A DNA stretch of 64,000 bases from Liolophura sinensis. Its lineage: Eukaryota > Mollusca > Polyplacophora > Chitonida > Chitonidae. Below the pieces are notes generated by a model, which did not search any database, was not told the origin of the DNA, and was given only the letters and a program-made list of their open reading frames with translations. Position numbers and translations under genes: made by a program. Below, in pieces: positions 6,367-40,400 of this stretch. The stretch's first letter is position 1. Each line of letters begins with the position of its first letter. The stretch is taken from NCBI RefSeq assembly GCF_032854445.1, contig NC_088302.1:51120046-51184045 (forward strand), in the 5' to 3' direction.

Positions 6367-7219
6367 ACACTCAGAAACTCATTTTAGTGCATCAGTGCAA
6401 GTGATTGAAGGCAAACTCTTTTTCCGTCATGCTGAAGGATAAAAAGTGTGTGCTGCTAAGTGGTAGAGTAGAGGCTCTAATGTTAATTCATGTTTGATCA
6501 GTTACATACACATGTGACCTTAGGGTCACTTCCTTTGAACATATGATTCCTGAAAGGATGACGTATAGGCCTGCAGAGTTATTGCTACACTGCTATGGTA
6601 CAAGTGCATTTCTTGTAGTGCTTGCATGAGTTAGTCTTACATTTGGACTCAAATTTGGCACCACCACCCCCCACCCCCACCTCCCAGCTTGCAGTTAGGT
6701 CATTAATCTTTGAGTGAATTAGTCACATTTTAAGTGCCTCTAGTCCCAAGGGTGACAAGGGTAACCGAGTCATTATGTACTGTCTATGTAAAGGACAATG
6801 TCAGAAGTCAAGTTTTAGCGATATTAGAAATGAAGCATTTCTCTATTAGTTTTAAATCATTTATACTTCGTGGTGTCATGCGAGTTTGTCAGAATTATCC
6901 ACAATGTGAACAGAATTAGAAATTTATCTGGATTGACTGACACAGCGCTGTCCTCTGTCTATTCTATCCCATAACAGGTGACTACTCTATGACATTTGTG
7001 TTGTCTCTGGCTATCATAGACTGCGGAAATCATGTGATATTATGACGACTTATTGAAAGCAGTCATGTCATTTGGTTATTTAAGTGGATGCACATTTTGG
7101 CCACACAACTTTAAAGGGGAGATAACTACATATATAAGCATAATAATAGTCTCTGCATAATAGTCACATATATGTTTGTGCTTGATTTTCATTGATTTAT
7201 GATATTATATGTTTTGCAG

Positions 7220-7798
7220 GTGCACCAATTGTTATTAGCTAAGATGTGGGTGAAGTTATTGAGGCCATGGTTGAGGCTGTACAGAGGGGCACTGGTGGAG
7301 GACAGCAGAATGCCTCAGTGTTTGCTTATTTACAAATCTTTTACAAATAATAGCATATCTTCACCAGTTTCTGTCAATTATACTTCTGTAAGAACGTTGA
7401 TGAAGAAGTCGCCAAATACATCAGAAGTTAATGCTGTGCTGGACAAGCAAGACAACCCCAAAATCCAACTATTTGGTTTGGAGAATGAACTGATGGCTGT
7501 GCTTACGAAGCATCAAGCTAAAGCTCAAGCTGAGAAACGTGGCCTTAAGCTGGTGGAGGTTGATGGAACAGCCAAACCTTACCCGGTCTATCAGCTGATG
7601 ACTGGCAAAGATTTGCATAAACAACAAATGGAACAACGACAAAATAAGAAAGGAAAACTCACAGAGAAGTCCTTCAGACTGGCCACTAAGATATCACAGC
7701 ATGATTTAGACATAAAACTGAAGCAGATGGAGCAAAACCTGATGAAAGGAAACCGTGTGAAGCTCATTGTAAACACAACAAAGTTTTCTTCTCCTCAG
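7220..7798 (+). CDS. MTIF3: MTIF3 exon 2 (start codon, IF3-N and start of IF3-C)
   Basis: Acceptor TTTTGCAG ends at 7219; 24 bases of leader precede ATG at 7244; donor CAG|GTATGG follows 7798. It carries the presequence, the IF3-N domain and most of the linker. Coding part is 555 bp, phase 0. Confidence 0.88.
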
Positions 7799-9023
7799 GT
7801 ATGGGTGTTGCTCATATGTTTCACGGGCAGTGTATGGGATTATATATTGGTTGATGCATTACTGCATGTATGTACAGTGATTCAGAGACACATATATGTA
7901 CACGCCAGCAATCATAATCATCGTGGGGCCTCTGTGCACGAGGTGGTTAGCACGCCAGCCCGGCACAATGACCCAGAGCCTCTCACCAATGCATTCTGTG
8001 CGAGATCAAGTCCAGCTCATGCTGGCTTTCTCTCCGGTGATACATCTGTCGGGTTCTGCCATGTTTCCTCCCATCATAATGCTGGCTGCCATTCTTTACG
8101 TGAAACAGTCTTGAGTATGGTATTAAACACCAATAAAATAAATAAACAAATAATCATTGTTGATGTAAACTGAGCAAACTCTTGTAGAAACTGTCTTCGT
8201 TTCGTATTTTCCGACATACTTTCTAACGTTGACAGGTTGACAAGAACTGAATTGAAACAACCTCTTAAGTGGCTTCGCAACTCTTGGTTTCCCCTGACTT
8301 TGCCTGGTGTCCTCCACTCTGAGTTCTGTCATAGAAATGAACCATTCTTGAGTATGGTGTTACATCACTATATATCAAATAAATATAAATAAATAAAAGT
8401 CTGAAATCAGTTAGATTTTCCGCCTTTAATTGTAGATTGTTTTGTCGAAAATGTAAAATGGAGGCAAACTTGCAAGTTTTAAATTGGAGCGGGGTGTGGC
8501 TGAGTGGTTATAAAAAGTGCCTGCCTTTTACTCCCTAATGCAGATGACTGCTGTTCAAACCGGCTCTTAGACAGGAAATATGTAGATTCCCTGGCCCTCT
8601 CTGTTTGTAAGAAGTTGATAACAACAAGTGGTTGATGAAGGTCATGTTGTCTGTGCAGTCGTACCTTTATTAATTAGAGTGATCGGAAATGATGGCAAAT
8701 AAAGTGCTGAAATATACAGTTGCACTGTATTGATTTCTACTAATCATTGGAGCACAAGGTTACTATTCACGCTCATTTATAGCTGTTGGTGCTGTCAGCG
8801 TAAATGTGTGGTGGTAAATAACGATCAAAACGTAAATAAATACTGTTATATGTTGATGTTCATGCAGGAAGGCGGTGAGGAACGCAGTAAGATGTTGAAG
8901 ATTGTAACAGGCCATCTGAAGGAGTTTGCCATAGTGAGTAAGGCCAGTGATACAGGCAAAGATTTGATGGTAGTGTTCAAACCTCTGCAGTCTGAAACCA
9001 CAGAAGAGAGCAACGATTGCTGA
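7244..9023 (+). CDS. MTIF3: MTIF3, mitochondrial translation initiation factor IF-3
   Basis: IF-3 binds the mitochondrial small ribosomal subunit, keeps the subunits apart and helps place initiator tRNA on the start codon. Two coding exons (7244-7798 and 8868-9023) join in phase 0 to give 236 residues. The N terminus (MWVKLLRPWLRLYRG) is basic with no acidic residues, as in a mitochondrial presequence. The IF3-N region covers about residues 60-120 (IQLFGLENELMAVL, AEKRGLKLVEVDGTAKPYPV), followed by the Lys-rich linker. IF3-C includes KISQHDLDIKLKQMEQNLMK and GNRVKLIV, and finishes in exon 3 with KMLKIVTGHLKE and KDLMVVFKPL. Length is a little under the vertebrate protein. Earlier in-frame codons lie inside the intron, so the start is taken at 7244. 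Confidence 0.9.
7925..8151 (+). mobile_element. SINE, near full length with internal deletions, in MTIF3 intron
   Basis: Shows head (gggGcctctgtgcacgaggtggttagcac), 'caagtccagctcatgctggc', the 'ataatgctggctgcc' core and the 'cttgagtatggtattaaacaccaat' tail plus an A/T-rich end. The main SINE family of the window. Confidence 0.85.
8330..8398 (+). mobile_element. SINE tail fragment
   Basis: Matches only the last block of the main SINE (ccattcttgagtatggtgttacatca) and its (AAAT)n tail. Confidence 0.65.
8488..8590 (+). mobile_element. tRNA-like SINE head, third family
   Basis: gtggctgagtggttataaaaagtgcctgcc (box A-like) and ctgttcaaaccggctc (box B-like) at tRNA spacing, but with no foldable acceptor stem. 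A tRNA-derived SINE in the MTIF3 intron, not a functional tRNA gene. Confidence 0.5.
8868..9023 (+). CDS. MTIF3: MTIF3 last coding exon (IF3-C)
   Basis: Acceptor CATGCAG ends at 8867. The exon codes EGGEERSKMLKIVTGHLKEF through MVVFKPLQ to a TGA stop, the end of the IF3-C fold. No clear AATAAA lies close downstream. Confidence 0.87.
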   Translation, partial: EGGEERSKMLKIVTGHLKEFAIVSKASDTGKDLMVVFKPLQSETTEESNDC

Positions 9024-16223: not shown

Positions 16224-16437
16224 TTATGTCTTGATGCCATTCACGCTGTTCTGTTTGGCCACATCAGGATTGTTTTTCAATTCCACCTCATCCACGTCAA
16301 TCTCCAGCATCTGCTCCGCTGTAAGTGGTACGTCCTGTTGTTGTTTGACAAATTCGCTGATTTTTTCCCAGTGTCGCTTATTATCCTCCACTGTCTCGAG
16401 GACTGGCTTGGCTTTGGGAAACAAGTCTGCAATGATC
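16224..16437 (-). CDS. PDE2A: PDE2A last exon (C terminus)
   Basis: Codes IIADLFPKA through ..NSVNGIKT and a TAA stop at 16226-16224. DLFPKA is the conserved final catalytic helix; the tail after it is rich in Asp, Glu and Val and is not conserved with vertebrates. Confidence 0.95.
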
Positions 16438-19400
16438 CTAGATGAAAATAAATGAAACAACAGAATGTAAACTAAGAATGAATCACTGTATGTCTCTGCT
16501 AACACTGACACAAATCAGCGCATTGAAATCTGAAAATAATGCACTTCCAATCAATAACCTTATCATAACTGGTAAAAGATATTATATATTGTATATCGAT
16601 AACTGGTAATTGTAAGTCTACTCAACAGATATACACATAGAATAAGACCACTAATCTTTCTGATATTACCCTAATTCCTCAACCTTTTCGCATATGAAAG
16701 AGCAACTTTCTGTCCATTTATACATGTTTTTAATTTGATTTTGGAGACAAAACTACATTGGTTAGATTGGGCAATTTCAGTGCTTCACAAAAGGTCTAAT
16801 TTGATTAATCTTCACAGAATCTGTTTGAATAAACAAACTGCAAACATGCCAAAAAGTTGAAAAAGAATAACAGTGCAATGCTCTCTATTTCTTTGCCAGA
16901 TTTCAAAAGCTGCTGAATACATGTACCTGTTTACTGAACTACCCAGGAGAGAACGAATCAGTTTTGTACATTTTAAATGATAGGATCAACCTGAATACTG
17001 CAGATTGTGACAAGATGGAGATAGTAAAGCTGACATACTTGTACACAGGCAGAGCAATGTGGTTCAAGAAGCTGATCTGAAGATCAGGGATTCGGGCTCG
17101 TTCTCTGTCCATCATCTCTATAGGGTTCTTCCCCAGGTTCTTCTCCATGTCCCCTTGGGAAAAGAACTCCTGGTATATCAACGCCTGCCATAAAGTAAAG
17201 CAAATTCCCCGTCAGTTAACTGATTTATACACATGTACTTAATTCTAGGTACATACGAAAATCAATCTTCAGTTTCTGATGCTAAACTTTCCCAGCATAT
17301 TCTTCTTTATATTGTATGGTGAAATTTGACTCCAAAAGAAGTCTGACAGTGTCACATTGAATTTTTGTCTGCTTACATGTATAAAGGACTTATCAGTAAA
17401 CTCGCTGATAAAACATGGAAAGAAATGCTAAACCTAAGGCAGAAAAACTGATGCCAAGTTCAAAAAAGTAAAAATATATATTACCAAAAACATTTCCAGT
17501 TGTCTGATGAAGATAATGTTATAATATACTAACGGCAATCTTTCTGGTATTCTTCCAGTTTTTGGTTTGGTCTGACAAGTCACAGGCTGTCATAAGTATA
17601 CACAGCAGAAGGTTATGGTGTTTCTTGTTTTTCACATCGTATCCATCTGCACAGAAATAACCCATAAACTGCATGTACATGTACCAACTGAAACAGTTTA
17701 TTTTTTCAAGAGGACATAGGACATGACATATGCACATGTAAGAACAGAAAGCCACTTTATATACACTGACAGACAAAATGAAACTGGAATCAAGTTCTTC
17801 TCAAAAGCACAGATTAAATCTACACAAAATCCTGCCATGTACAAAGTCTGTCAAAAAGAACAGAAATCTGAATCGGCCAGATGTCCCTGTATCATTGTGG
17901 CTTACCACACAGAATCTCATGGAACTGACATATGTAAGAAAAATTTCTATCAAATATCACATACAAATGTACCTTTCGCCATCTGCTCCAGGTTTTTCAG
18001 TATTTTAAGATGATGAGCCAAGTCTGTGGCTAAGATAATGTCCCTTACTAAGTCCAGGGCTTGCTGGTAATCCTGTGGAACAAAAGCAAACCATGGTTAC
18101 AACTAGTAGCAATATTCAAGGGTGGCAATACTGTAAATCCATTAAAACCTCTGAAACACTTCTTTCAGTGAAATTTATACATACAATTATTATAGAAATG
18201 ACCCTGAAATATTTTATTTGTGTCACTAAAGATGCAAGTTTCATACAACTATGCAAATTGTTTCCTGTGTACTCAATGATTCTCTTAAAATATCAGTTGC
18301 AGAGGAGGCTGAAGAATTAGGGTAGCAGTTATCATTTTTGGGATGCCATCCACACTTGTGGTGAATGTCGCTTGTCACACTGCAGGGAGTGTGCAGTTAT
18401 CATTTTTGGGATGCCATCCACACTAGTGGTGAATGTCGCTTGTCACACTGCAGGGAGTGTGCAGTTATCATTTTTAGGGTGCCATCCACACTAGTGGTGA
18501 ATGTCGCTTGTCACACTGCAGGGAGTGTGCAGTTATCATTTTTGGGGTGCCATCCACACTAGTGGTGAATGTCGCTTGTCACACTGCAGGGAGTGTGCAG
18601 TTATCATTTTTGGGGTGCCATCCACACTAGTGGTGAATGTCGCTTGTCCCACTGCAGGGAGTGTGCAGTTATCATTTTTGGGATGCCATCCACACTAGTG
18701 GTGAATGTCGCTTGTCACACTGCAGGGAGTGTGCAGTTATCATTTTTGGGATGCCATCCACACGAGTGGTGAATGTCGCTTGTCACACTGCAGGGAGTGT
18801 GCAGTTATCATTTTTGGGGTGCCATCCACACGAGTGGTGAATGTCGCTTGTCACACTGCAGGGAGTGTGCAGTTATCATTTTTGGGATGCCATCCACACT
18901 AGTGGTGAATGTCACTTGTCACACTGCAGGGAGTGTGCAGTTATCATTTTTAGGGTGCCATCCACACTAGTGGTGAATGTCGCTTGTCACACTGCAGGGA
19001 GTGTGCAGTTATCATTTTTAGGGTGCCATCCACACTAGTGGTGAATGTCGCTTGTCACACTGCAGGGAGTGTGCAGTTATCATTTTTAGGGTGCCATCCA
19101 CACTAGTGGTGAATGTCGCTTGTCACACTGCAGGGGGTGTGCAGTTATCATTTTTGGGGTGCCATCCACACTAGTGGTGAATGTCGCTTGTCCCACTGCA
19201 GGGAGTGTGCAGTTATCATTTTTGGGATGCCATCCACACTAGTGGTGAATGTCGCTTGTCACACTGCAGGGAGTGTGCAGTTATCATTTTTGGGGTGCCA
19301 TCCACACTTGTGGTGAATGTCGCTTGTCACACTGCAGGGAGTGTGCAGTTATCATTTTTGGGGTGCCATCCACACTAGTGGTGAATGTCGCTTGTCACAC

Positions 19401-22400
19401 TGCAGGGAGTGTGCAGTTATCATTTTTGGGATGCCATCCACACTAGTGGTGAATGTCGCTTGTCACACTGCAGGGAGTGTGCAGTTATCATTTTTGGGGT
19501 GCCATCCACACTAGTGGTGAATGTCGCTTGTCCCACTGCAGGGAGTGTGCAGTTATCATTTTTGGGATGCCATCCACACTATTGGTGAATGTCGCTTGTC
19601 ACACTGCAGGGAGTGTGCAGTTATCATTTTTGGGGTGCCATCCACACGAGTGGTGAATGTCGCTTGTCACGCTGCAGGGAGTGTTGTATACCACACACAA
19701 GAAGATTTATATATAGCAGTTAGATTTATGAATCTACATGTGTGAGGTATTAAGCACGCACAAGGCCTGTCTAGCAAGCTAGTAGTATGTACATGTAACA
19801 CATACATCCACAATGTTTGTTCTAACACAGTCAATGCATCTGAATGAAGATGCTACAAATTAGTTTTACGGATTCCGCAAGTTCTTCTTGTGCCAATCTT
19901 AATATAAATCAATATTCTACAAATACCCTTGACTGTCTGGGCAGTGTTTTCCTTTAATGACACTTTGGCTTACCCTCCTTGATAAATTCTCAAAGATATT
20001 ACACCCATCAGTGTTAACTATACACATGGCCTGAGCAAAATGATGTCTCTGAAAAAGGAAAAAAAACAGATAGTGATATTAAAACGTTCATGTGAAACAT
20101 GCTATGCTTCTTTGTTTAATCAGTACAAATAGAGTGGAAAGAATTTTCCTCATCCAAAGATACTTTGCTTGAATTAACTGTATCACATAAAGCCTGTATG
20201 CTAAATCTCACCTCTAATTACCATGTACCATATCACAATAACATTTCTCACAAGTGTTTAGTTTATATACACACCTCCATTACAGATCCTTCAGAACTAT
20301 ACAGCGCTGCCAACACTGTGGACTGTCAAGTAAAAGACGCATTGGAATTACGTGCAGTTCCAAAATATGTTAGTCATCATATACTTTACAAAGTGTAAAT
20401 CTATGTTTTATTTATTTGATTGTTGTTTAAAGCCATTTGCTGTCTCCGTCAATCTTAAATGTTAAAAAAAATATATCTATGTTGGAATATTTTGACAACA
20501 CTGTTCTGTCCCAAATGAAAAAAATTATTCTCAAATTTTTAAAGCTCTTTCTATACTATATGTGTATGATCTTGAAACATCACATGCCCCTAATTTATTC
20601 TGATATAATTCCATACAACATACATGGGACAAAATTGGTCCACCTAGTTTTACATTATGGTTCAATATAGTTTTCAAAGCTGCCTCTCATCTGACAAATA
20701 GAAACATGATTCACTAAATGAATCTAAGTGAACTAAATCAAGACTGCAGTGTAGCCTGTACATCAGATGCTATCCCTTCTGTGTACAGGCCGAAAAGATC
20801 ACACCAGTCCGAACCTCTGACATGACCATGTGTAAACCAGACTGCATGATGACCCTTTCTTTTGAACTCAGAACTTATAGATATGGTCTGAGAATTAAAG
20901 ATAATTTTTCACGTCTAACCTGACAGAACAGTCTAGCTGGTAATATGTGTGATTAACTTACAGAAGCAACCTGGAACGAATTGTTGGTCCCTCTGTGGTC
21001 AATATCATGACAAAGACAGGATACAAACAAGGCAAACACCTCAATCTCGCTGAAATAAAAACACAAGGAATGATTTGTAATCTTTGGATGTAAAGGAGCA
21101 TAAATCAATCCTGAATGTCAAAGTGTACGTTAAGAGGGGAAAACTGTTTTGGCCGTGAGACAGTCTACTACGTAAGATGAACGAACAATATAGGACAGTT
21201 CAGTTTCAGCTTTCCATGTTGCTAAGGCCTGATTACTTACTCTAGGTAGTCTTGTAGTTGCAAGTTCTTTATAAGAAGGTAACAGAAGTGAGCCACAGAG
21301 TAAGCATGCATCCAGTTGTGGTAAGGCGGATTTCTGTAGCCTTTCCTAACCATCAGTAAAAACCTAATAAAAGACACAAACACAATTTATCAATTCACTA
21401 TACATTTGTAATGATATATACATGTACAAGGACATGGACGTGTATAGCATAAAAACTGGTACTGTAATAATGGACTAAAGTGGTAAAACTATTTGTTCTT
21501 AAGCAAGGTAAGGTATTATTCATTGTATTGAATGCATAAATACTTTCACTAATATACTGAATCTGATCACCATAAATAAAACAATAACTCAAACATGTGA
21601 CAAATTTAACGACCACATGAATGGTTTATCTGCCTCTTTCTCCTCAATACAATCACTCAAGTCAGAAAAGAAGATATAGACTGCTAAATTTTAAATCTTG
21701 TTAAAAAACAAGCTATATTATTTCAAGCAAAACATATGGATGCAAGTTCACTGCTACCTTGTTTGTCACTATAGACCACTGCAGAACCTGATGTTTTAGT
21801 ATGAAAACACTTTAATAGCAAAGAAAACACTAAAAATAAAGTATATTTCAGATGACAGACCATTAAAGACAAAGAAAACACTACAGGGAAACTGAGAACT
21901 CCACTATCTTCATACATGAAACAAAGGTAATAAATCCTGATTACCTAGCTAGAGTGTCCTTCTTAATCCTCCAGCGACAAATTATATTCAAGTCGTCCAT
22001 CATGCTCATCACGGCCTGAAAATACAGGAAGTTTGGGAAGTACAATATAAACAATCTACTTGTCTAATCCTACTGCTGACTTACACATACATATTAGTGA
22101 CTCATGCGACTGTTAACTAATAGACGTACTCTTCAAGACATTTCACTTATAACAAGGAAAACTGTATTAAGTTTAGCAATTCAGACCACTGAATCAGTGA
22201 GTTCTTGAAAATTATTTATTTACTTATTTGAATGGTGTTTTATACCGTACTGAAGAATATTTCACTTATATGGTTGCAGCCAGCATTGTAATGGGAGGAA
22301 ATTGGGCAGAGCCGAGGAAACCCACGACCATCAACAGGTTGCTGGAAGACCTTCCCGTATGTGATTATTTCTTTCTTGTTCACAGCGATGATATATACAA

Positions 22401-25400
22401 TTTTGGAGTTATCCCCCCTTAATCATACTCAGCGCTTCAATTGGGGAATCTTGGTACAGTCACATTTTGCACTCTATTGTGCGACACATCACACTTTTAA
22501 CTCTTGAACCCATGTGACACATTGACACTGAGGCTTTGTGTCTGAACTGTAAAGGACACTCAAGAGGCCTACCATGGTTGTTTTGTTCTCCTCTAGTAGC
22601 CTTGGAGAATAAAGAAAGAGGTCAAACTCTGGATGGATTTGCCGAGGGGTCTGGATTTCCTGCTGAAACAGGTTGTTCACATCTGCTGTGGACACCTGGG
22701 GAACATGAGACACATGAACTGCTATTACACAGTTCTTAATTAGAATAACAACACAGACAGCCTGTCATTTGCAATATACACAAATAATTTTACCCTAGAT
22801 TTCAGTTCAATCTTTGAGGTATAGGAATTGCTATCATAAAATGACTTTGAACTACTGTATTAGTTTATTTATATCAAATTAAATTTAGATCAGTCTGTTT
22901 TTCATTACTGCTGTAATCCCGCCACGTTCCATTCCGTGACAGTTTATTAGGCATGACCAATACAGGAGTTTAGAGTTCGAACTCTTATTTGTTGAAGGTA
23001 AAAATAGTCCTCCTGTATCAATTAGAAAATGTTAGGCAACCTTAGATAACATTAATTTACTGATCACTTGTCTCACTGAGGCACAAATGGAACCCTTTTC
23101 CTTTTATCGAAAATTCTCGTCCTATATATTTTTAACATATTCTGTAACATTTTTGACATGTAATATGATACTTTTTTTTTTTACCTTTTTTCTTACCGAT
23201 AAAAGAGTTTGAACAGGAAACTCCCCTATTGTCTTTGCTAGTTTCATACAATCACAAGGACGTAATTGGAGTGATCTAGGCAGTTGTAACTTTTTGTCAT
23301 AGCCTAACATTATTTTCTACACACACACAATTTGTGATTACTACATTCAGAAATGTCAGTGAGGCGTAAAACAGGTCATCCTGACAGCCCATCCTGCACA
23401 CCCAAGCAGGTACACAGGTAAATAGTAGAGTTATGTCAAACACCATACAGTACAGACACACCACTCATGCAATTTACATACTATGTATACATACAACAAA
23501 TAAGTGCACAGCTTTACACGAATGGTAGTAAATGAGTCGAAGAAGGATTTTGTGTTCAAAGAAGCTATAGATGGAAGATGAGAACTAAGATAAGTGCAAA
23601 AGTTGACAGTTTATTAAAACAAAATAGATGTAAATAAAGATTCAAAAGTACATACAAAAAAGGGAGTTAAGGGCAGCTTGTCTGATCGCCAGTCTAACAA
23701 TGCATAATCACATGCAATTACAAAACGCAACACCTCTCCACTAGGTGCCTCAGAGATACCGATGCAAAATGACATCCATCTTGAAATCCTGTGAGGTTTT
23801 TATTCGTACTTCACCTTACACATATCATAACTTAAATGTATCTATAGTTTTAAATGGCATGAGATTGTTATGTTACATGTATGTCCACCGAAGATACTTA
23901 AAGATAACAAATCTGCACTTGTCAATGTGTTCTTTATACAGATCAAATATATTTGAACATTGTAAAAATCACAATGTTTGTTTGTATCTTCACATTCATT
24001 TCACAGGTATGTAATTTAATAATAAGTATCATTTCTTCAACATGGTTTACCATCTACTGTGACGTGTGAAGAAGTTCAGCCACTACAGTGATACATATAC
24101 ACTTTTAATACTTGAGCTTTTTTAAGTGTAACTGTGGAAACAGGTTTGAACATTAGCTTGACTAATATAGTATATGACAGAGATATCCCATGTTGATCAG
24201 CAGCCATACTAAAAGGTGCAGATTCTCATGTTCAATTTCAGTACCGGTACCATAATAGAGCTACATGTATACTTTCTGGAAGACACATGCACTAACCTTC
24301 ATGTGGTAGATCATGAGTTCTATTGACAATTTATTGCGATTGTGAGCATCCTGCAATTTCTTGTACATCAGACTCTGTAAGAGAAACGACTACATTGCTA
24401 AAGACAACAATAACAACACAGATTTACCAGTCAGGAGAGTGGAGATTATCTACTGTGCAGCATGCTAGCCTTAAGCACCAGCTTACAGTCACGTGACCCC
24501 TGTCTCACTCACTCGCACAGGCCTTAACCACAACGGTCACAATGTACACTAGGGATGATTTCAAATTCTTGTGTCTAAAGTGATTTCGTCACTCACAGGA
24601 GTGAGTGAGTCTGAAGAAAGATTAGTTGGTAAAAACACCAGTTTGCTTACTCCAGATTTCTAACCATAAAAATGCTGTATACCAGGATAGACAGAAAAGC
24701 CTGGTTTCATCTCCATAGTCATAACAATGCTGACTTCGTACTTCCACTTCCACTAACAAAAAGGACTGGAGTAGCTGAGTCCCATCAGGCAGATATTAAG
24801 GTTAAGAGATAGACCCACACTTGACAGTTTCAGATTCTGTGTTAGGAAGCAGTCTATTTCTGCAAGGTGTAGAGGGTGAGTGAGACAGAGTGCAGAGGGT
24901 CCTGTAGGAGGTGACAGACGTGAGAGTCTCCAGCGTAGACAATACCTTCATATGATACATCATAAGTTCATTAGCCAAACTGTTTCTATGCTGAGCATCT
25001 ATCACCTTCTTGTACATGAGTGACTGCAAAAACAAACACACTCCTCCTTGATTTTTTTAAAAGACAATCATAAATTATCACATAATAACAAATGTTACTA
25101 TTGTTTTATAGTCATCAATGTCCAAGATATAGTGTTGTATTTCATTTTACCTATCACATCAACTGTGAAAATTAAAGACATACCAATGCTGTTTGTGCTG
25201 AAATAGAAAGTCAACTTTGTTGCTTATACATGTACAAGAATACAATTACACCATGACAAAAATAGTTCATTGCATACTGACTAAAAATATCAGTATGCCT
25301 TTATTCTTAAGGTAAGTACATACTGCTTTTGTGGCTGGAACGAATTTTATGGTAGATTAACTGTTGACAATATCAAACATTTTGTTTTACTAAGCCTCAC

Positions 25401-28400
25401 AATGTGCTAAGTAGACGTTCCTAAAGGTGAAAGTTATAAAAGCCCTCCAGTGTGTCTTTTTTACAGCCTTTTCATAATGTGCCTTTGCACTGTAATAACT
25501 TAATGCAGTTTAGAAAATTTATCAAAGGCTATATGTATAACCATCTTATAACCATCCTCAGACCATTGAATGCTAGTGACTTACATGGATAATGCTGATA
25601 CAACAGTAGACAGAGAAGGCTGATGCTATCTCCTCATCAAACTGGGTAAAACTAGGGCCAGTCTTCTTGTTACATAATTGTGCCACTCCTATAACCCTAC
25701 CTGTGGCAAGATAAGAGTATGTTATTAGTACAACATAAACGATCAGTAATTGATAAATGTGTCATAAGCGTAACTGAAGCTATAACCAAGTCCAAATCAG
25801 CTATATTGTGTCAAGTAAAAAGTGAAAGTTTCATGTCTATCAGTATTCAAACTTTGAAATGCACTTTCAGGAAAGTCTAAAAAAAATCCCAATCCCAGGA
25901 TTTTTTTCTCGACTTGAACTGACAGCAACCGCACTAGTGAGAGGTTCCAAGGTCATCGCGCCACATTGGCGTCCTAGACACCTCTGCCATGGAGTCCCCC
26001 AGAAACCGAATCACCACTGTTCTCTTTTGATACATGTTTGCTCACAAAGCTTGATCACAACTGCAGAAATGAACAATAAGTCTATAAATATATATCTATA
26101 TGCACATACACAGTTTGAGTTCAAATTACTTCAGACAGGAAAGGTTTTCCACTGAAGTACAGTATAAATTGCGTTCTTATAAAAGACATCATGATTTTCA
26201 GTTGTGCTTTGTGTCCAGTGAAAATTAGCCTTAACTGACAAAATCGTAATCTATGACACAATGTTGGTACTCTTTTTTCCAATGTTCAAACATTACAAAT
26301 ATATAAAAGCAAAGCAAGCTTACTGTTCTCATCCTTGATTGGGAAACATAATATATTCCTGTTTACAAAAAAAAAAAAAGAAAGAAAGAAAGAAATAAAG
26401 GCCATTATTTCTGGAACTGTACTAAACTCTTTACATAAAGAAAACCAATATACTGTTCTTTATAATGAAAGCTTCAGAACAAAGTCATCACCACAACAGA
26501 GCTCTAAATGTATGGTTTATCTTATGAAATGAATATTTAAAACTCATGTGGTAAAACAAACGTGAGAATGACTAGAGAATCTATATATGTAATACTCCTC
26601 AAATACAGAGAAATTACCATTACAGAGAATCGTTATGTAAGCTTGTATGTATTATGCAACTTTGTACCTTGTTCTGAATCCTGTGGACTCGTCAATTCCT
26701 CTGTAAAACAGTGGATGTGAGTACGCATCTCGGATGTTCAGTAGTTCACCTGAAACCATAAAGTATTGAGGCATACAACGTACATGGTGACTTAATCTTC
26801 AGAGACGGTTTCATAAAGCAGTCATATAACACATCATCTGTACTACATTCATAACAACACATAATGAGGCTACAGGTCATCCTTAAAAATGTGCTTGATG
26901 TAGTGTTGCAATGTACTTCTATGTGCTGCCCTTCACTGGGTACCTAACAAACCTCCTGACCTAAGTAGCAGTTAAACCAGGACAAACCGGTGGATCAACA
27001 CTGGTGCAAATGTATACACCTGTGAAAAAACATAGACAATTCAAACGTTAGATCTACCAATCCAACTAGTAGCTTTGTAAATGGAAATATAAATACAATC
27101 AATCCAAGACGACCTTTTTTTAGCCTAGTAATTCAATGCTAGTGTAACCATGTCCCCATAGTCATAGCAGAGAAAATGATAGCTGGATTTGAACACACAA
27201 TCTCATTGGTCAAGGGCCTGAGCGTCTGAAAGCAGATTTAACCACATGAGCCAGAAAGGGTCTGAGTCTGCTGGACATGTAAGCATATAGTTGCTTTGAA
27301 AAATGATGTTTCTACAATTAAAACACAAATATAATAATACAGTATGTCAGAACCAAAATGTCTGAGAGTTTCCTTGAAAAGCATGGCAGTGAATAGAAAT
27401 GTTAGTTATACTTATAACAGTGTTGATTGCTTTAGAGAACAGCTTTACATTAGTTACACGTGTTTATTTCTCTAGTAGCTCCTAGCATTACAAATCGACA
27501 TGATGATTATGTATCACCTGCAACAGATTTATCATATACATGTAGGGTCGCACTCTAATGTTGTTACCACATGACCTGCAATACACTACTCACTCAGGTG
27601 CTATATTCCCTATGCAGTACTTGTAAGAGCATGAATCTGTTGTTGTTGTTACCAAATGATCTTCTCTAGCTCCTTTTTTCACCTTCATTACCTCATGACC
27701 GGTACAATCTATGTTATTAGCATATATTTACCTTTCATAGCCACCTATACCTTTGTACACAATCACCTGTTGTTGCCAGTTGCCCTGCTATACCCTGTTT
27801 TAGTTTCTTTGTTGCCCCATGGTCAGGTACAGCCTGTGTTATAAATATACACTTACGTATCATAGCCACATATACCTTTGTATGCACTCACCTCTCATAC
27901 TACTTGCCCTGCTATACCCTGATTTAGTTTCTTTGTTGCCACATGACCAGGTACAACCTGTGTCATAAGTATACACTTACCTATCATAACAATATATAAC
28001 TTTGTATGCACTCACCTGTCGTTGCCACATGACCTGCTATACCCTGGGTTATTGGTATACGAATCTCTTTCTGTACCTGAAACATGAACAGTTTTATTCA
28101 TCACATCATTTGATTGGTATCTTAATGGTGTACGAAACAATATATCACTGAAACAATTCTGATAAGTTTTATGGGTGGAATGAATTGATCATTGCCGGGG
28201 AGGAAGACCAGTGGGTGACATTCTCTAGAGATGGAAACCTCAGCTCACTGAGCCTGCCAGTGGCCTATTACACACCAAAGCAAAGGTAATAAACAGCAAT
28301 TCCATGTCACATTCATCATCATTTTATGCCACTGCCAGGAGATGTAGGAGCAATTTGTGTTGTAATCCAGACATCTGTATTAGTCCCACGATGACCCATA

Positions 28401-31400
28401 TTACTACCAGGGGACATCACTGATTACTTTAGTCTCGTAAATTAGGTAACGTTCATCATCAAATGAAGAAGATACATCAGTTCCATAGTGACCTACATTA
28501 ATCTTGATAAAATTATGTCACATTTACCTTTAAATGAACAACACTCTGTAAATATACATTTCTTGGTTTCGTTGGGTGGATCATTGAAAAATGCATTTAA
28601 ATCTAATGTTATTACATGCATAATGTTATAATGTTATTATGCATGTATACAACACTTTGTTGTTATCTATATTACTCAAAATCTGACATCACTGATCAGC
28701 TTGGTTAACTGATGTCACATATACCTTTAAATGAACAATTATCTGTAAAGACACATTCCTTGGTTTCGTTGGGCGGAACACTGGATAAACCTAATGTTCA
28801 AAACCTTTCATTCTGCATTTAAACCATACTCCGTTGTTATCTATAGAACTGACATCACTGATGGACTCAACCTGGTTAACTTGTCACACTTACCACTGAA
28901 TGAACAACTGTCTGTATATATACTTTCCTTGGTTTCATAGGGTGGGACATAAAAAACATACAGCTAAATCTTAGGCTTAAAAACTCCATAACTGTACTTC
29001 ATGTAAACCATTATTCTCCTGTAATATTTGAGTCCTACGCTGCCAGTTTGCTCCTCAGTATAAGGAATCCAGAAGTGAACAACAGACGATATACATGTAC
29101 ACAGTTCACAACTTAGCTTGGCTAACTTATGTCACATATCACATGTATATATAAACCGTACTTCGTTGTTGTCTTTGGTAACACCATCGAAAACCATGGC
29201 CACCAGTTCCTCTTCATGATCATCAATGAGAAAAACAGAGCACCTGTCCAACAAACGACATCACATTCCATTGTTACATACAAAAACTGCAATTTATATT
29301 TAATACATTAAAATTCAGTTATGCCACTTTCATATAAACAGACATTAAATGTTTGTTGAATTGGCCAATATGCTGTGGGCATAAAACCAGGAACAGTTGA
29401 AAATGGAACATTTGCCAAATTTACAACAATCATGTCAATACTGTACTAAACTGTCCATACCTTTCAGCTTTTGTTAAATTTCTTGCCTCCTGCATTATCT
29501 CACGGAGAAGGGTTGTTAAGTCATCTAAAAGCAGAGGAAAGGACAACTCAGATCTCAAATCTTCTTAAATCATGTAAATACAGATAGCATTCAAGAACAG
29601 ATTTCCAAAACTGTTAAAAGAGAAGAAATTTACTCTTGAAATACTTGTCTCTAGAGCATGATCAACTGGCTATACCTAGAACTGCCCACTGCAATGCTAA
29701 TAACCAATAATCTGCTATTTCAATATTGTTAAGCTTTCAGAAGATTTCCACAGACCTTTAATTTGCATGCTTTAATCATGTTGTTATCATTGTGTACATA
29801 GTTGTTTCTTTGTACATATATGTATATTTATGTATATAATTATACCTGAATACTAAAGTTTGTGTGAACTTGGAAAGCACAGAAGCTCAATTCAACATCG
29901 TCTAACAAAATAACATGTGAATTGAAAAAAAAAAAAATCAAACAGGAACCAAAAACATTTCTAAAATAATACGAAATAAATATAAACTCAAAAACTGAAA
30001 TACAAAGTTATCATGTTCACTTGAAAAGCAACAAAAATCAATACATGTACACTAGCTGGGAAAAAACCCCAAAAGAGTAACAGCAAAACCGGGAAATGCC
30101 ACACTGGGAACAAGTACACCTACTTGACCAATTCTCTTTACAATGGGACTGTGAGGTAGGTGCTGCTAACAAACTAAGCAGATTACAGGATGTCTGTGTG
30201 CCACAGTGTGCCATCAGGCGGGTGTCAGAGGCATGGGTCTCTGTGGAGGTGGATATCATGTGTGATGTGTGTGAATCCACATCTTCCACAGAGATAACGC
30301 AGGAGGATGACTGGCTACGAAGAGCACCACACTGCTCAGTTTCCATGTCACCCAGCTCATTCAGGGCTCCGTAACTCCCAGAAAGACATAGCTTGGACTG
30401 TCGGCCATACAACATAAAGGCTTTGTTAAGAGCTTCCTGGCTCCCAGCGGTGAGTCCCATAGAGTCATGGAGGGCAAGCTCGCTGGCATAGTCCTCTACA
30501 CAGATGGGCAGACTCAGCGATATTCTAGGCCCCAGGGTAACGTCATAAGGGTCCTCCTCCAGCATCTGTTCTAATGCTACACCCGATGACTTGTCTGGAC
30601 AAGACTGGGCAACCCTCCCTTGGGTCCCCTTTGAAACAGAGCTGTCTGATAAGCTTGTGGTAGGAACAAGTGGAGTTTCAGGTAGTACAGGTACTTCTGA
30701 AAATGGGTTTGCTTGTAGGCAGGACTCTTGCAGTTCTCCTTGATCATCACTGTATGCTGGTTTAAACATGGATGAGCCATCTGGAATCACATTGGCGATG
30801 TCCACTTCAGCCGCACGCCCAACCACATCAGGTAACTGACAGCTGCTTTGACAAATGGGCCCACCCATATTGCCTACATTCTCAGGTAGCCCTTCCTCCA
30901 AGACAGCCATGAAGTCATAGTCATTTGGGTTGATCTTAATCTGGGACAAAGTCGCTAAAGTCGGCACAGGTTGTTCTGGCACTTCATTCTCCACTTGATT
31001 TGCCCTGCTACATTTCCTCTCCCTTGGGCCATAAGGACTCTTGACTGTTTTGGTCCTCTCTCGACCAGTCTGCTTCTCTGGGGACTTGATTTTAGGGTGG
31101 ACCCTGTGCCCAGGCCTAAGGACTTCATGAGAGCTGTGATCAGCCTGGCAGCTAGTCAGAGCGTTTGCTAAGTTTGACTGCTGACAGAGTTGTTGATGTA
31201 CTTCTACTGAGCTATCTGTTTTCATTTTCTTTGATGAGTTCACTTCCTCTGGCAAGTGTGCCCCTGTAAATTTACGCCTACGTGTGTTCTGGCACCCGTT
31301 CATGTACTTGTTTCTCTGCCTAAGTGTTCTAGATAGTATGCTAAATAAGGGAGGGGGAAGGGGACGCAGTAAGTCAGACCTATAGCCCACCTGGTCATAC

Positions 31401-34400
31401 TGAGCTTTGCTAGGTAAAACACGCAGTGACAGAGATAAACACTCACCCAGGTGGGTAAACAGATTTCTGGCAACCTGCAGTAATGTCTGAAAAATGGAAA
31501 ATAATGGCAGAAAATCACTATTTGCTCATGATAAAGACTGCTACCATATGTTTGACATAAACATGGTAATAATAATAAAATAATCCAAGGTCATTAAAAT
31601 AGTACTTCTTTCAAGAATTTCAACCAGGGTCATAGAGTAATGTGATGAAAATAACACTTAGCTTTAAAAAGCAATATTTTTACCTCTAACAAGTTATAAT
31701 ATATAGCATGAAAGTTTGTGCGATATTTGACAGGGAAAAAAGAAAAGAGCATAACTGATCAAAAGCCTTAACTGGATCCTTATAACCAGTATCTGGTAAA
31801 AGAAGAGATATCCTAGTGTACGGAATTGTTAACAGACTACTTTCATCAAGACTGCTTGTTGTACAAGTCAGATGGTCAATTCACAAGCTAAAGCCTCACT
31901 TGTGTTTCATTCTTTAACCTCCTTTCATTCTGGACTGCTAAGGTACTTGTTAGCACAGTTGAGGTGTATTTAAAACAATGTTGTACTGCCTGGATGTCAT
32001 CATCAGTAAACCTGAACAAAAATAAATACTTTCTTTAATTACAACATTGGCACTTATTTTCAGAAAACGTTATTGAAACAACATACTGTTATATGGATGT
32101 CACTCTACTCTCTCATTCTGCCTTTCACATGTTTTCAAGCTGTTTACTTTTGAATGAATAAATGAATTTCTGTTAAACCCACACTGGCACTGTGTCAGCC
32201 ATATCATGATAAAAACATGTGAGAACAAGGAAATAGCTGTCTTTTGATTTGAGAATGACATCATCCGAAATCAGAACAAATGATAAACAGATGCTTTTAA
32301 ACCCACCTAAAACAAGCAAAACTGAAATGTAAAAATCATATAAAATGTAGTTCTCAAACATGTACAATATCCATATGTGTTTCAAATATCTTTGAAATAC
32401 TTAACTACACCATCAACAGCAACACCCTTGAATAACTGAAATAATGAGTCAAGTGGTGTACAGAACTAGCCCATTTGGGGCCACAAGCAAGAACTCTGGG
32501 TTATAGTCTCTTCTTACTCTATAAAGCTTGCCTAGAGGGCAGAGGGTGTATTTTTTTCACCCTGAGACCTCACGGGTATGGTTTATTTTTATTTGTTTAT
32601 TTAACTAGTGTTTTATGCTGTATTCAAGAATATTTCACTTAATATACAACAGTGGTCAGCATTATGGTGGGAGGAAACCGGGGCAGAGCCCCGGGAGTAC
32701 CCATGAAGATCCACGGCTTGCTGCCAGACCTTCCCAAGTATGGCCAGAGAGGAAGCCAGCATAAGTTGGACTTGAACTCACAGCGACCGCATTGGTGGGA
32801 GGCTCCTGGGTCATTGCTCCGTGCTGGCACGCTAATCCTCCTCTGCCAAGTAGGTGACGTTTACTATTATATATACATGTATGTACAGAAAGGTACATGT
32901 CAACATAAAAGAGCGTACTATTATCTACCCTTCGAGTGTACACGTATACCCCAGGCAACAGAAAACACTGAAAACTACTCCATACCCTGTGTCCTTTGCA
33001 CTAATACTGACAATCCTTGTCCATCTTACAACCATATATTCTGTGCTGAAATTGGACTTTCCAGAAAGATTGAGAGAACAAGGTAAAATGTATCTGACTG
33101 ATCCAAAGGTTGTAGTTAAGCAGCAATTGAGACAGCCCTTAAGCTACGCCAGCAAAACTTGTTAACTAAATGGAGGAAGCCCTAGAATACCACAGACATC
33201 TTCAGCCACCTAACGCACACTTTGGCCAGCGCAGGAGACACTCTCACCAAAAGCTCAAGGCCCACAACCTTTCAAACAGGATCTGAGAGCTGCTGTTGAG
33301 CCCATATTGTGTATATCAGGGACACAGACAGCAAAGGCTTTCAGCTCAACTATTCAACCTATCACCTAGTACACAAGACATCCTCCACCAACACATACGC
33401 AGCCACCTGGGCTACAGTTTAAGAATATTTATGATGATTTTCCAGGCGTTTTGGTCAGCATGGTGTAATCCCCAGACTGTGGAAATGTGGTAGCAATATC
33501 TTTATGACTTTTTACCAGAATAAAAGACACAGATTCACTGAGAACAGGTCAAACTGATGGTAGCTAAACCAATAGGGGCTGAGCTAATCTCAAACATCCT
33601 CCCACCATAATGCTGGCCGATTTCGTATACGTGAAATATTCTTGAGAATGGCGTAAAACACCAATCAAATAAATAAATGTAAAACAAACAAGAACATCTG
33701 TGAGCTTTCAAGCGCAATAGACTTAAAAGTATTTTTTGACTCCACAAATGTACACTATCATGCCGATTATATTATACTGCACCCATTAGATTTTGAACCT
33801 CTTGTACAAAAGACCCTTCACAGAAATTTTCAGCAAAATAATGTATGTATATATGGATGTAAGAAAAAAGACACTGTATTTACACACTACATGCACATTT
33901 AGTATATTACACCAAAATTTTCTTGTGATGTAACATCAGTTTGTGCGAACTAAAATTCCTCCATTCCCCAGCTGATCATCAACCTGTCTCCAAATAACAA
34001 GGACTGCATACCTTTTAGCACAGAGTACTGGAGAAGCTCACTGTGTTAACAAGTGAGAAAAAAATCCAAAGAGCCATAAATGATATTATGACACAAATAC
34101 ATGTATTATTTGTCTACTGACTGGCGCTTTATTGCATTCATAAACATTTCAGTGATATGCATATGATTAAGGTAAAGTTCAGAGGTGCACCAAACAGAGC
34201 AGAGCACCTCCTGACCTAGATGTGCTGCCAAATCAACAGAACTAGATTCAATCCTTTGACCTTGAGTGTCAATGGCTTATGATTTGGAGCAGAGATAGAT
34301 AGAACATCAATATAGCCAGAGTAGACCTACAGCCCATTTGGCAAAATGTTGAAAGGTCAAGGAAATCGGTTAGTCATTCTGAATAACCTAATTCTTCAAA

Positions 34401-37400: not shown

Positions 37401-40400
37401 GCTGTTCGGCAATTATATGAACAGTTTGAAATTCCACCCTAGAAATATCAAAAATACCTAAACCTACCTCAATAACTCACTTTAAATGTTTCTACAGGAC
37501 ATTTTATGGTTTTCAATTAATAAATTTCTAGAAAACAGACTTACGATCCATCTGGCCACATGTAACCAGAATAAAAACAGCCAATATGTGAAGCCTAACT
37601 TTGACATTTGTTAAACATTGATCCCAATACACAATACACTATGTCAGTAATTTACAGTATTTAAAATGTACACACTCAATCAACGATGGAATATCCTCCT
37701 CATGTTACTGTGGTCTACAAGTGTGCAAACCCTGATCTCAACACATGCAGTACTTTTTGAGATACCACCCCTAAGATTTCGTTTAACATTGCTTTCCGTG
37801 TTACTGGACTCTGCACTCAGGGTACGACATAAGCAACGCCTGGGCCAAAAATGTATCCCACTATCAAGAACATGAAGAGAACAATCCGCAAAAACAGGAA
37901 CAACAACAACTCTATCCTCCCATACAGCTGAGCACAACTAACACATTGCTAATCATATAATACTCACTGGAAAGCGGATTTCTTCTGCTAAAACTTTATC
38001 CCGATGACCTGCACACAAAATAATTTAAATAAACTGAAACACTTTTTTTGCATAACAAGTAAAACTTTTCAAAAAATATAGACATTAAATGGGAAATTGT
38101 TAGTGCAACATAATTCTGGTAAACTTACCAGCATACCAACAAGCAATGAACTGAAAGTGTGGGAACATGTACCTTTCTTACATGATAGTTTCCAGTAACA
38201 TGACAATAATTTTTCTATCCATGCAAGGCTCACTTTTAATTTTCACTGCCGTGACAACACTTACAAATGTGGTATTCAGAGGTATACAGTACATGGCTAA
38301 AACAGATACATGTTCAATGTATATGGCGACTACTAACCTGACAAAACAGTTCCTTGCATTCTGCCACCACCAGCAGGACAAATCCACATTGGGCCTGTGT
38401 CTGCTGCTGTAGCTGTAATAAAAAGAACAGATAAATGTTCAGTACACAAAATATCCTGGTTCAAAAATGAGTATCTAAATATCAAAGGCACGCCTTGAAT
38501 CACATGTACCTTGAAAGACCTAAAATTTTGTCCATAAGTTGGCAATTTTTCCAGATTCTGGGAGTTTTACTGATTTTAGAAAGGTGTTTTGAGAGATGTT
38601 TGGAAGGTGTTTGCGAAACACTTACATGGTATTGGCATGTTTCGACAATTGTATCATAACACGCTGTGAACAACCTATTTATTTCCTCATATTCATACAA
38701 TCACCTTTTTTTTTAGAAATAACAAAACAAACTGGAATATTGTCTTCCCCTACACCCTAGTTATGCACTGTATGTGGGAAGGACTCCCAGTAACCTCATG
38801 ATGGCAGTGGTTTTGCCCCGGTTTCTGCTCGGTTTACTCCCACCATATTTATGCTGGTTGCCGATGTATAGGTGAAACATTCTTGTGTTTCTTGTACAAC
38901 ATACGTCAAGAAAATAAATAAATAAATTATTAATACTTTGTCCGACTTAATGGTCGAAGAGGAGGCTTCACTGGCTGTCAAGCAGATATTTGTATATTTC
39001 TGTTGCATATACTATTCACCACCTTCACTTCAATTTAAAACACTCGCTTGTGTCCAGAGAAGGTTTGAATGAAGGTATAAAAGTTGACCTGAAGCCAGAT
39101 CTATCATGTCTACTGGCCAGCTATAAGCTGGTTCTCCGTGTCAGAAATTCTCTGTCCAAGGCATAGATTGAACTGACACCTTATGTGCACCTTGTCAGGC
39201 AAATGTACTTGATAATAAATCTCCCTGCACATGGCAGGCTTTACCAAGACAGAGCCAATTTCTCGCCAGTCAGCTTCATTTCTCAAGTACCGATGGGTTG
39301 TCCGGAGATCCCAGTATTGTGGTTTACAAAGCAAAATAACCAGCCTAGAGGAAACATGGATTTTATATGTAACAAAATGGAACAGATAATGAAAATAGAA
39401 ATTACACTTTATACTTAAGAAAAAACAAAGAAGTCTTTGGAGTTTGAGAAAGAAATGTTAGTTAATTTCATCAAAAAATTTACACATGGGGACCACTTAA
39501 CAAAACAACTGAATCTTCATCAATCCCACATTGTTATTTCTGCCCAAAAATGTCTAATGAAGCTTATTGACATTCAAAGAAAATTTCCTGCATTTACCTG
39601 AAATTTCACTGAATGCTATGAAACTTGGCTTTATTCCTGTGACTGGCATTATATAGACTACTCTGTATTTGCAAATTCAATTACTCTTTTTACATCAGTG
39701 TATGTAATAACTTACATATTTAATGACTTTGATCTGTAACGAGGCAGCATCCTGGTCATACAGCTCCGCTGTAAGAGAACAAGCAAATTATTTTTATACT
39801 GTTCACATTAATTGGTAAAACTTTGTTGCCATACTTAAATAACAGGCCTTAATTTGAACTGAACAGAAATTGGGCATTACATGGCATATCAGTCGCCTGT
39901 TAAACGGCTAGCAGCAGCTCTGCTATGAATTACTCCTCCAAAATCTTTTAGGAGAGCTATCCCTCACAATGAGCAAGCACTTTGTTACAATCAAGACACT
40001 AATTTGTAAAATAAAGAAAGCTCTGAAGAAGCATTTATGTTTTCTTTACGGTTTTCATTTCGATAATCAACAATCACAAGCATAATCCTTCATCAGACTG
40101 TTTGTTGGGCAGCAGTTGTCCCTGCTGCCATTTCCATTTCCCAAAAGTGAAGAGCAAATATTCGAAGCAACTCAATGTGGAAAGAAAGAGAATTTTTCAG
40201 CAAGAATAAAGGATTATTTTATTAAAGATTTGGTAGATCAGTCTTCAAGTCTGATCTTGAGTCCGCAAGCGAGAGCCATTATTGCAAAGCCTGTTTACAG
40301 CAAACCAGAAAACAAAACGGCGTCAACCTATATTTCAATGTTGTTTAACGCTGTATTTGAAGAATTTTCCTCTTTTATGAGTCAGTCCAACCCCACCCAC

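Follow-up and report, generated by a model that had tools for sequence, protein, structure and literature searches.

Among the closest described systems is that of OGDH, in which the mutually exclusive exons 4a and 4b decide the Ca2+ sensitivity of the enzyme (PMC7969005). As at the chiton locus presented here, two tandem duplicated exons offer alternative versions of a short regulatory stretch within an enzyme. In OGDH, exclusion is brought about by branch points whose distance to the 5' splice site is 25-41 nt (PMC7969005), whereas the intron separating the two chiton exons measures 571 nt. The catalogues of human tandem duplicated and mutually exclusive exons (PMC9741552, PMC5740500) contain further cases that are likewise neighbouring, homologous, in frame and of similar length; the terms PDE and phosphodiesterase are absent from the main texts of both. 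With regard to PDE2A, a 2025 review names three splice variants (PMC13095499). Mammalian PDE2A1, A2 and A3 are the same enzyme as the chiton PDE2A, with GAF-A, GAF-B and a catalytic domain, but the mammalian variants have N-termini that direct localisation (PMC13095499), whereas in the chiton the linker between GAF-B and the catalytic domain would vary. According to the same review, cGMP at GAF-B is hypothesised to act by a conformational change that the α-helix conveys to the catalytic domain and its H-loop, a route that awaits confirmation (PMC13095499).

A preliminary description of this DNA had proposed that no PDE2A exon pair of this kind has been described, which fits both the open-licence papers listed in our searches and the three N-terminal variants of the 2025 review (PMC13095499). 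Among the matches listed for that literature, searched by titles and starts of abstracts, none described such a pair, and the matches listed for the PDE2A linker helix were just reviews and papers on neighbouring topics. We regard the chiton pair as a real and selected new example of a known splicing module, at a functionally pointed place.

The PDE2A gene and its exon pair

The window, that is, the whole stretch of 64,000 nucleotides analysed here, lies at C8:51120046-51184045 of the chiton genome. The assembly was built from 14x HiFi reads with a heterozygosity of 1.24%, and public RNA-seq reads of this chiton, from digestive gland, foot, gill, gonad and heart, are deposited as SAMN35319765-69 (PMC11068029); our genome searches covered 609,464,459 bases in 632 contigs. 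On the minus strand of the window, a gene model of 24 exons, including the two discussed below (A and B), starts at 39768 with part of GAF-A and reaches the stop codon at 16224, and all of its internal boundaries carry AG and GT; the N-terminus and one piece of GAF-A, neither of which was located, fall outside the model. The assignment of the locus to PDE2A, an enzyme with two GAF domains in tandem ahead of a PDE catalytic domain, is supported by the order of the exons and by a 162-residue stretch across exon A, which matches PDE2A at 3.2e-59 (3ibj) and 5.4e-59 (9lrn), the first match outside PDE2A being PDE5 at 3.5e-19.

Two other features were observed within the gene. A 68-bp minisatellite of about 20 units occupies a PDE2A intron (window positions ~18325-19700). 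Exon E-f ends at 31447, and an open frame of 495 residues (30038-31525, minus strand) runs in frame from this exon through its donor into the intron; at E values of up to 1 it matches no Pfam family, and a genome search places it once. It may perhaps represent an extended alternative exon that has an end of its own, or else a nested gene.

Exons A and B lie between two constant exons, all on the minus strand. The upstream one (25585-25700, 116 nt) encodes part of GAF-B, matches PDE2A and finishes in phase 0, and the downstream one (22573-22695, 123 nt) starts in phase 0. Exon A (24946-25023) and exon B (24297-24374) are 78 nt each, both in phase 0/0, open and bounded by AG and GT, and the intron between them (24375-24945) has 571 nt. 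With identities of 18/26 in protein and 54/78 in DNA, they form a tandem pair in the usual sense: adjoining homologous exons of equal phase and length with common flanking exons. Either exon by itself links CCISIIH to VSTADV at the mammalian spacing, and the two agree at both ends of the helix, SLMYKK and YHMK. Both map to residues 551-576 of 9lrn_A (PDE2A, 941 aa), between the GAF-B and catalytic matches. The gene identity, the coordinates, lengths, phases, splice sites, translations and 18/26 identity of the pair, the end of the preceding exon at 25585 and the start of the following one at 22695, and the location in the helix leading from GAF-B to the catalytic domain had all been put forward in the preliminary description, and each was reproduced or, for the gene identity and the location, supported in our analysis.

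The resemblance of B to A is specific. When 127,846 stretches of 26 residues, taken from all six frames, are compared with exon A, the best are A itself (26 identities) and B (18), followed by a stretch with 8. Downstream of A, as far as the following constant exon, nine stretches of 78 nt are bounded by AG and GT; of these, B shares 18 residues with A and the runner-up shares 3. For 18 other exons of the gene (E-d to E-u, A and B left out), the best open, AG/GT-bounded intron candidate of equal length reaches an identity of 0.23, over 13 residues, and the introns flanking several of these exons are devoid of any candidate of equal length. When both exons are searched together as a 761-base query, a single genomic place is returned, the query's own, in a search that skips very common words.

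Divergence, selection and changed positions

The DNA differences between A and B are distributed over codon positions 1, 2 and 3 as 6, 4 and 14. Nei-Gojobori estimates give pS 0.79, with synonymous sites that look saturated, and pN 0.215. In a neutral simulation with an equal number of changes, none of the 20,000 runs retained 18 identities together with an open frame. Outside the exons, the 300-nt flanks, compared after removal of the 20 nt nearest to each exon on its upstream side and the 6 nt nearest on its downstream side, resemble each other no more than mononucleotide shuffles do: the alignment score was reached by a fraction of 0.52 of the shuffles upstream and 0.94 downstream (300 shuffles), versus 0/300 for the exons themselves. 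The 20 nt directly preceding each exon, inside the pyrimidine tract, are 50% identical. Similarity of the flanks thus appears to have been lost beyond detection over the 300 nt compared. Given the codon-position bias, the saturated pS and the flanks that score no better than shuffles, the pair is old and has been held by selection, and there is good support for regarding both A and B as coding exons under selection.

Comparison with mammals orders the two forms. Exon A is the mammal-like one, with 19/26 residues identical to the mammalian ones, against 14/26 for B. At five positions A agrees with mammals and B differs, and at none is the reverse found, so that B is the derived form; A and B agree with each other and differ from mammals at four positions, and all differ at three. 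The eight positions changed between A and B (557, 558, 561, 562, 565, 567, 568 and 572) cluster on one face of an ideal helix, with a permutation P of 0.034 over the 26 positions and 0.013 within 557-572, a modest clustering whose P values are uncorrected for the choice of test; 557, 561, 565, 568 and 572 make up the altered face. Position 568 is Ile in B, Asn in A and in mammals, and Leu in PDE5 (..MVTLEVLSYH..). In its context, B aligns to the PDE5 exit helix (9lss/3bjc) at E 0.21, non-significant alone, whereas A in its context fails to reach PDE5 at E values of up to 10; we take the PDE5 likeness of exon B as a hint only.

Use of the two exons

We consider it probable that A and B descend from an ancient tandem duplication of the exon which, in PDE2A, encodes the helix leaving GAF-B, that a transcript takes either one or the other, and that the swap tunes coupling to cGMP. 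Most likely, each transcript would carry A or B, yielding two enzymes with common GAF-A, GAF-B and catalytic domains that differ at 8/26 helix positions. Such an exchange would alter the coupling element while leaving the sensor and the active site untouched, and would probably set the strength with which activity is switched on, or the cGMP level at which this happens. As both exons look selected, the chiton can probably make two enzyme forms with different cGMP coupling; and, as cGMP binding at GAF-B is proposed to reach the catalytic domain through this helix, tuning of activation is the probable effect of the swap. Alternative use, mutual exclusion and an effect on coupling are what we infer from the sequence, with mutually exclusive use as the best reading; the preliminary description had proposed such exclusion as probable and a tuning of activation as possible.

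Nature would in this way have provided a selected pair of sequences for exactly the helix between GAF-B and the catalytic domain, with all else unchanged, which amounts to a ready-made experiment. Two enzymes separated by eight substitutions would bear on the hypothesised route from GAF-B to the active site (PMC13095499). If the pair is common to other mollusc lineages, cross-talk between cGMP and cAMP would be shown to be regulable in animals by splicing of the allosteric linker, beyond N-terminal targeting.

It is unlikely, in our view, that B serves as an optional cassette added after A, lengthening the helix by 26 residues in some transcripts. The spacing, splice class and frame of the exons would permit A to be joined to B, and use of both keeps the frame, as had been noted beforehand, since 78 is divisible by 3. 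Yet B retains both exon ends as a replacement would, and neither exon needs the other to bridge CCISIIH and VSTADV at the mammalian distance. Moreover, because 26 equals 3x7+5 and is not a number of whole heptads, a paired helix would lose its register if doubled, and this shift makes mutually exclusive use of A and B the most likely mode.

Somewhat less probable still is that B is an unused relic of the exon duplication. Its derived state, with five positions at which A alone agrees with mammals and none of the opposite kind, is in line with a relic. However, when A was simulated under selection and B as neutral, P peaked at 0.033 among 14 settings (kappa 4, 0.3 changes per site and branch), a value that takes no account of the intact splice sites and the absence of indels in B, which come on top. 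A neutral B is thus disfavoured by the codon counts alone, and B has in addition kept a strong donor and acceptor without any indel; taken together, a neutral, unused B appears unlikely.

Unselected copies in this genome look different. A decayed tandem array of ~124 bp (27701-28051, minus strand) comprises the 3' part of exon E-i and its intron; its two partial E-i copies (27701-27927) fall short of the complete exon, and one is interrupted by a stop in the corresponding frame. A gene at C1:37.24 Mb, PDE5-like by its best match (PDE5 9lss, 1.9e-16), carries, at the corresponding exit-helix exon, a 69-bp tandem array (L007 1400-2100) whose units repeat the end of the exon, several including the splice donor and one containing a stop; one pair of stretches from it gives pS 0.10 and pN 0.09, a near-neutral divergence. 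The A/B pair looks unlike both arrays, which serve as contrasts for unselected copies.

We find it very improbable that A and B are both constitutive, which would give the chiton PDE2A a doubled exit helix. The model that includes both exons is open across the junctions, but an insertion of 26 residues that shifts the register would then sit permanently in an allosteric linker, and two full-length copies fitting the same flanks are what substitution of one by the other would predict. Finally, an assembly duplication, which the preliminary description had named as a possible refutation, or an uncollapsed haplotype is ruled out by the 31% difference in DNA with its codon-position bias, by the unrelated flanks and by the single genomic place. 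A PDE2A retrocopy, which would have recorded the spliced form, was not seen among the 45 matches of a 399-residue query across the exons, of which the best candidates were scored, given that those in the window were single exons and those outside it had at most 55% identity.

Splicing signals

The splice-site scores of both exons fall inside the range of the gene. The donor of B is strong (9.5, second of 23 in the gene) and its acceptor ranks seventh of 24, while the donor of A is weak (4.6, 18th of 23). The AG-free zones before the exons are short, 15 nt for A and 13 nt for B.

Several known ways of enforcing exclusion were considered and rejected. Steric exclusion follows a rule of introns under 50 nt (PMC5740500, PMC7969005) and accounts for 9% of human clusters, U2/U12 incompatibility for 0.79% and frame-based exclusion for up to 60%, this last being the share of mutually exclusive clusters with exons not divisible by three (PMC5740500). 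At the chiton locus, the 571-nt intron, the ordinary GT-AG sites at both exons and the short AG-free zones, none of them long before B, speak against steric or U2/U12 exclusion. Frame-based exclusion is rejected too: the 78 nt of each exon are divisible by 3, the frame is kept, and double inclusion or skipping would therefore escape nonsense-mediated decay. None of these devices is a prerequisite of mutually exclusive splicing, and the same holds for competing RNA structures.

No clear docking-selector structure was found by a crude test of three intron pairs and of single-intron folding. The best duplexes between introns lie within ~1.1 SD of 30 shuffles (-182.8 against -184.3; -257.3 against -246.6, SD 9.4; -203.8 against -209.9). 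Single introns, with 40 shuffles each, give folding z values of -1.95 for the intron between A and B, a weak excess, 0.26 for the one upstream of A, and -0.08 for the first 600 nt downstream of B.

The simplest model would be a regulated competition, in which a trans-acting factor raises or blocks the use of B. A TGCATG element, which we take to be an Rbfox-type motif with Rbfox as its presumed reader, is located at 24286-24291 (minus strand), at +6 to +11 of the exon B donor. Besides B, just one of the 24 exons, E-b, has this element within 150 nt downstream (at +113). So near a donor, TGCATG could act either way.

Exon pairs at other phosphodiesterase loci

As a control, we scanned each of the 12 other phosphodiesterase loci for such pairs, in stretches that do not necessarily comprise whole genes; the best matches, at most 10 per locus, were retained and the PDE-like pairs among them chosen by eye. 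In the same scan, the matches listed for the PDE2A locus were dominated by the 68-bp array, and A/B was not among these. At least three of these loci, one PDE10A-like and two PDE9A-like, seem to carry tandem exon pairs, a count that is a lower bound because the pairs were picked by eye from so few matches per locus. Their presence speaks in favour of the reading given above for A and B.

The PDE10A-like gene, on C7, has PDE10A as its best solved relatives (1.3e-14) and holds three pairs bounded by AG and GT, with lengths set by eye. One, of 134/143 nt, falls in a GAF segment (L002 366-499 and 1022-1164). The other two are consecutive in the catalytic domain: a 112/112-nt pair (L003 1401-1512 and 2311-2422; pS 0.81, pN 0.41) and an 81/81-nt pair (L003 3155-3235 and 4435-4515; pS 0.70, pN 0.41). 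In the first PDE9A-like gene, on C9, a 105/105-nt pair over DISNE.RP (L004 3463-3567 and 4685-4789; pS 0.67, pN 0.19) falls on the part of the PDE catalytic model that the 112-nt pair in the PDE10A-like gene also covers. The second, at C1:69.44 Mb, contains a pair of ~117/114 nt, delimited by eye, over LILATDMARH (L013 5103-5219 and 4333-4446, minus strand). A weaker candidate is found in a further PDE gene on C6 (L010 352-450 and 655-753, minus strand; pS 0.70, pN 0.30). Its segments, QMFADLWPGLKPLYDG and QMFSVVSENLKPLYDG, lie near the C-terminal end and are possible alternative last exons. At the other eight loci, no such pair was recognised among the matches listed, which were mostly repeats and short, weak ones.

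These pairs raise the possibility, which we put forward only tentatively and hold to be somewhat short of an even chance, of a family-wide exon-swap system in chiton cyclic nucleotide phosphodiesterases, through which coupling, affinity and substrate handling would be set by splicing. If this were the case, PDE2A would swap the helix from sensor to catalyst, the PDE10A-like gene a GAF segment and two consecutive catalytic exons, the latter amounting to four catalytic combinations, and the two PDE9A-like genes would exchange exons of the catalytic domain.

The window also includes, on its plus strand, an open frame (7196-8173) with matches to domains of translation initiation factor IF-3 (PF05198 at 2.5e-09; PF00707 below its cut-off), which continues into a stretch (VSTPARHND..) resembling one near another PDE locus.
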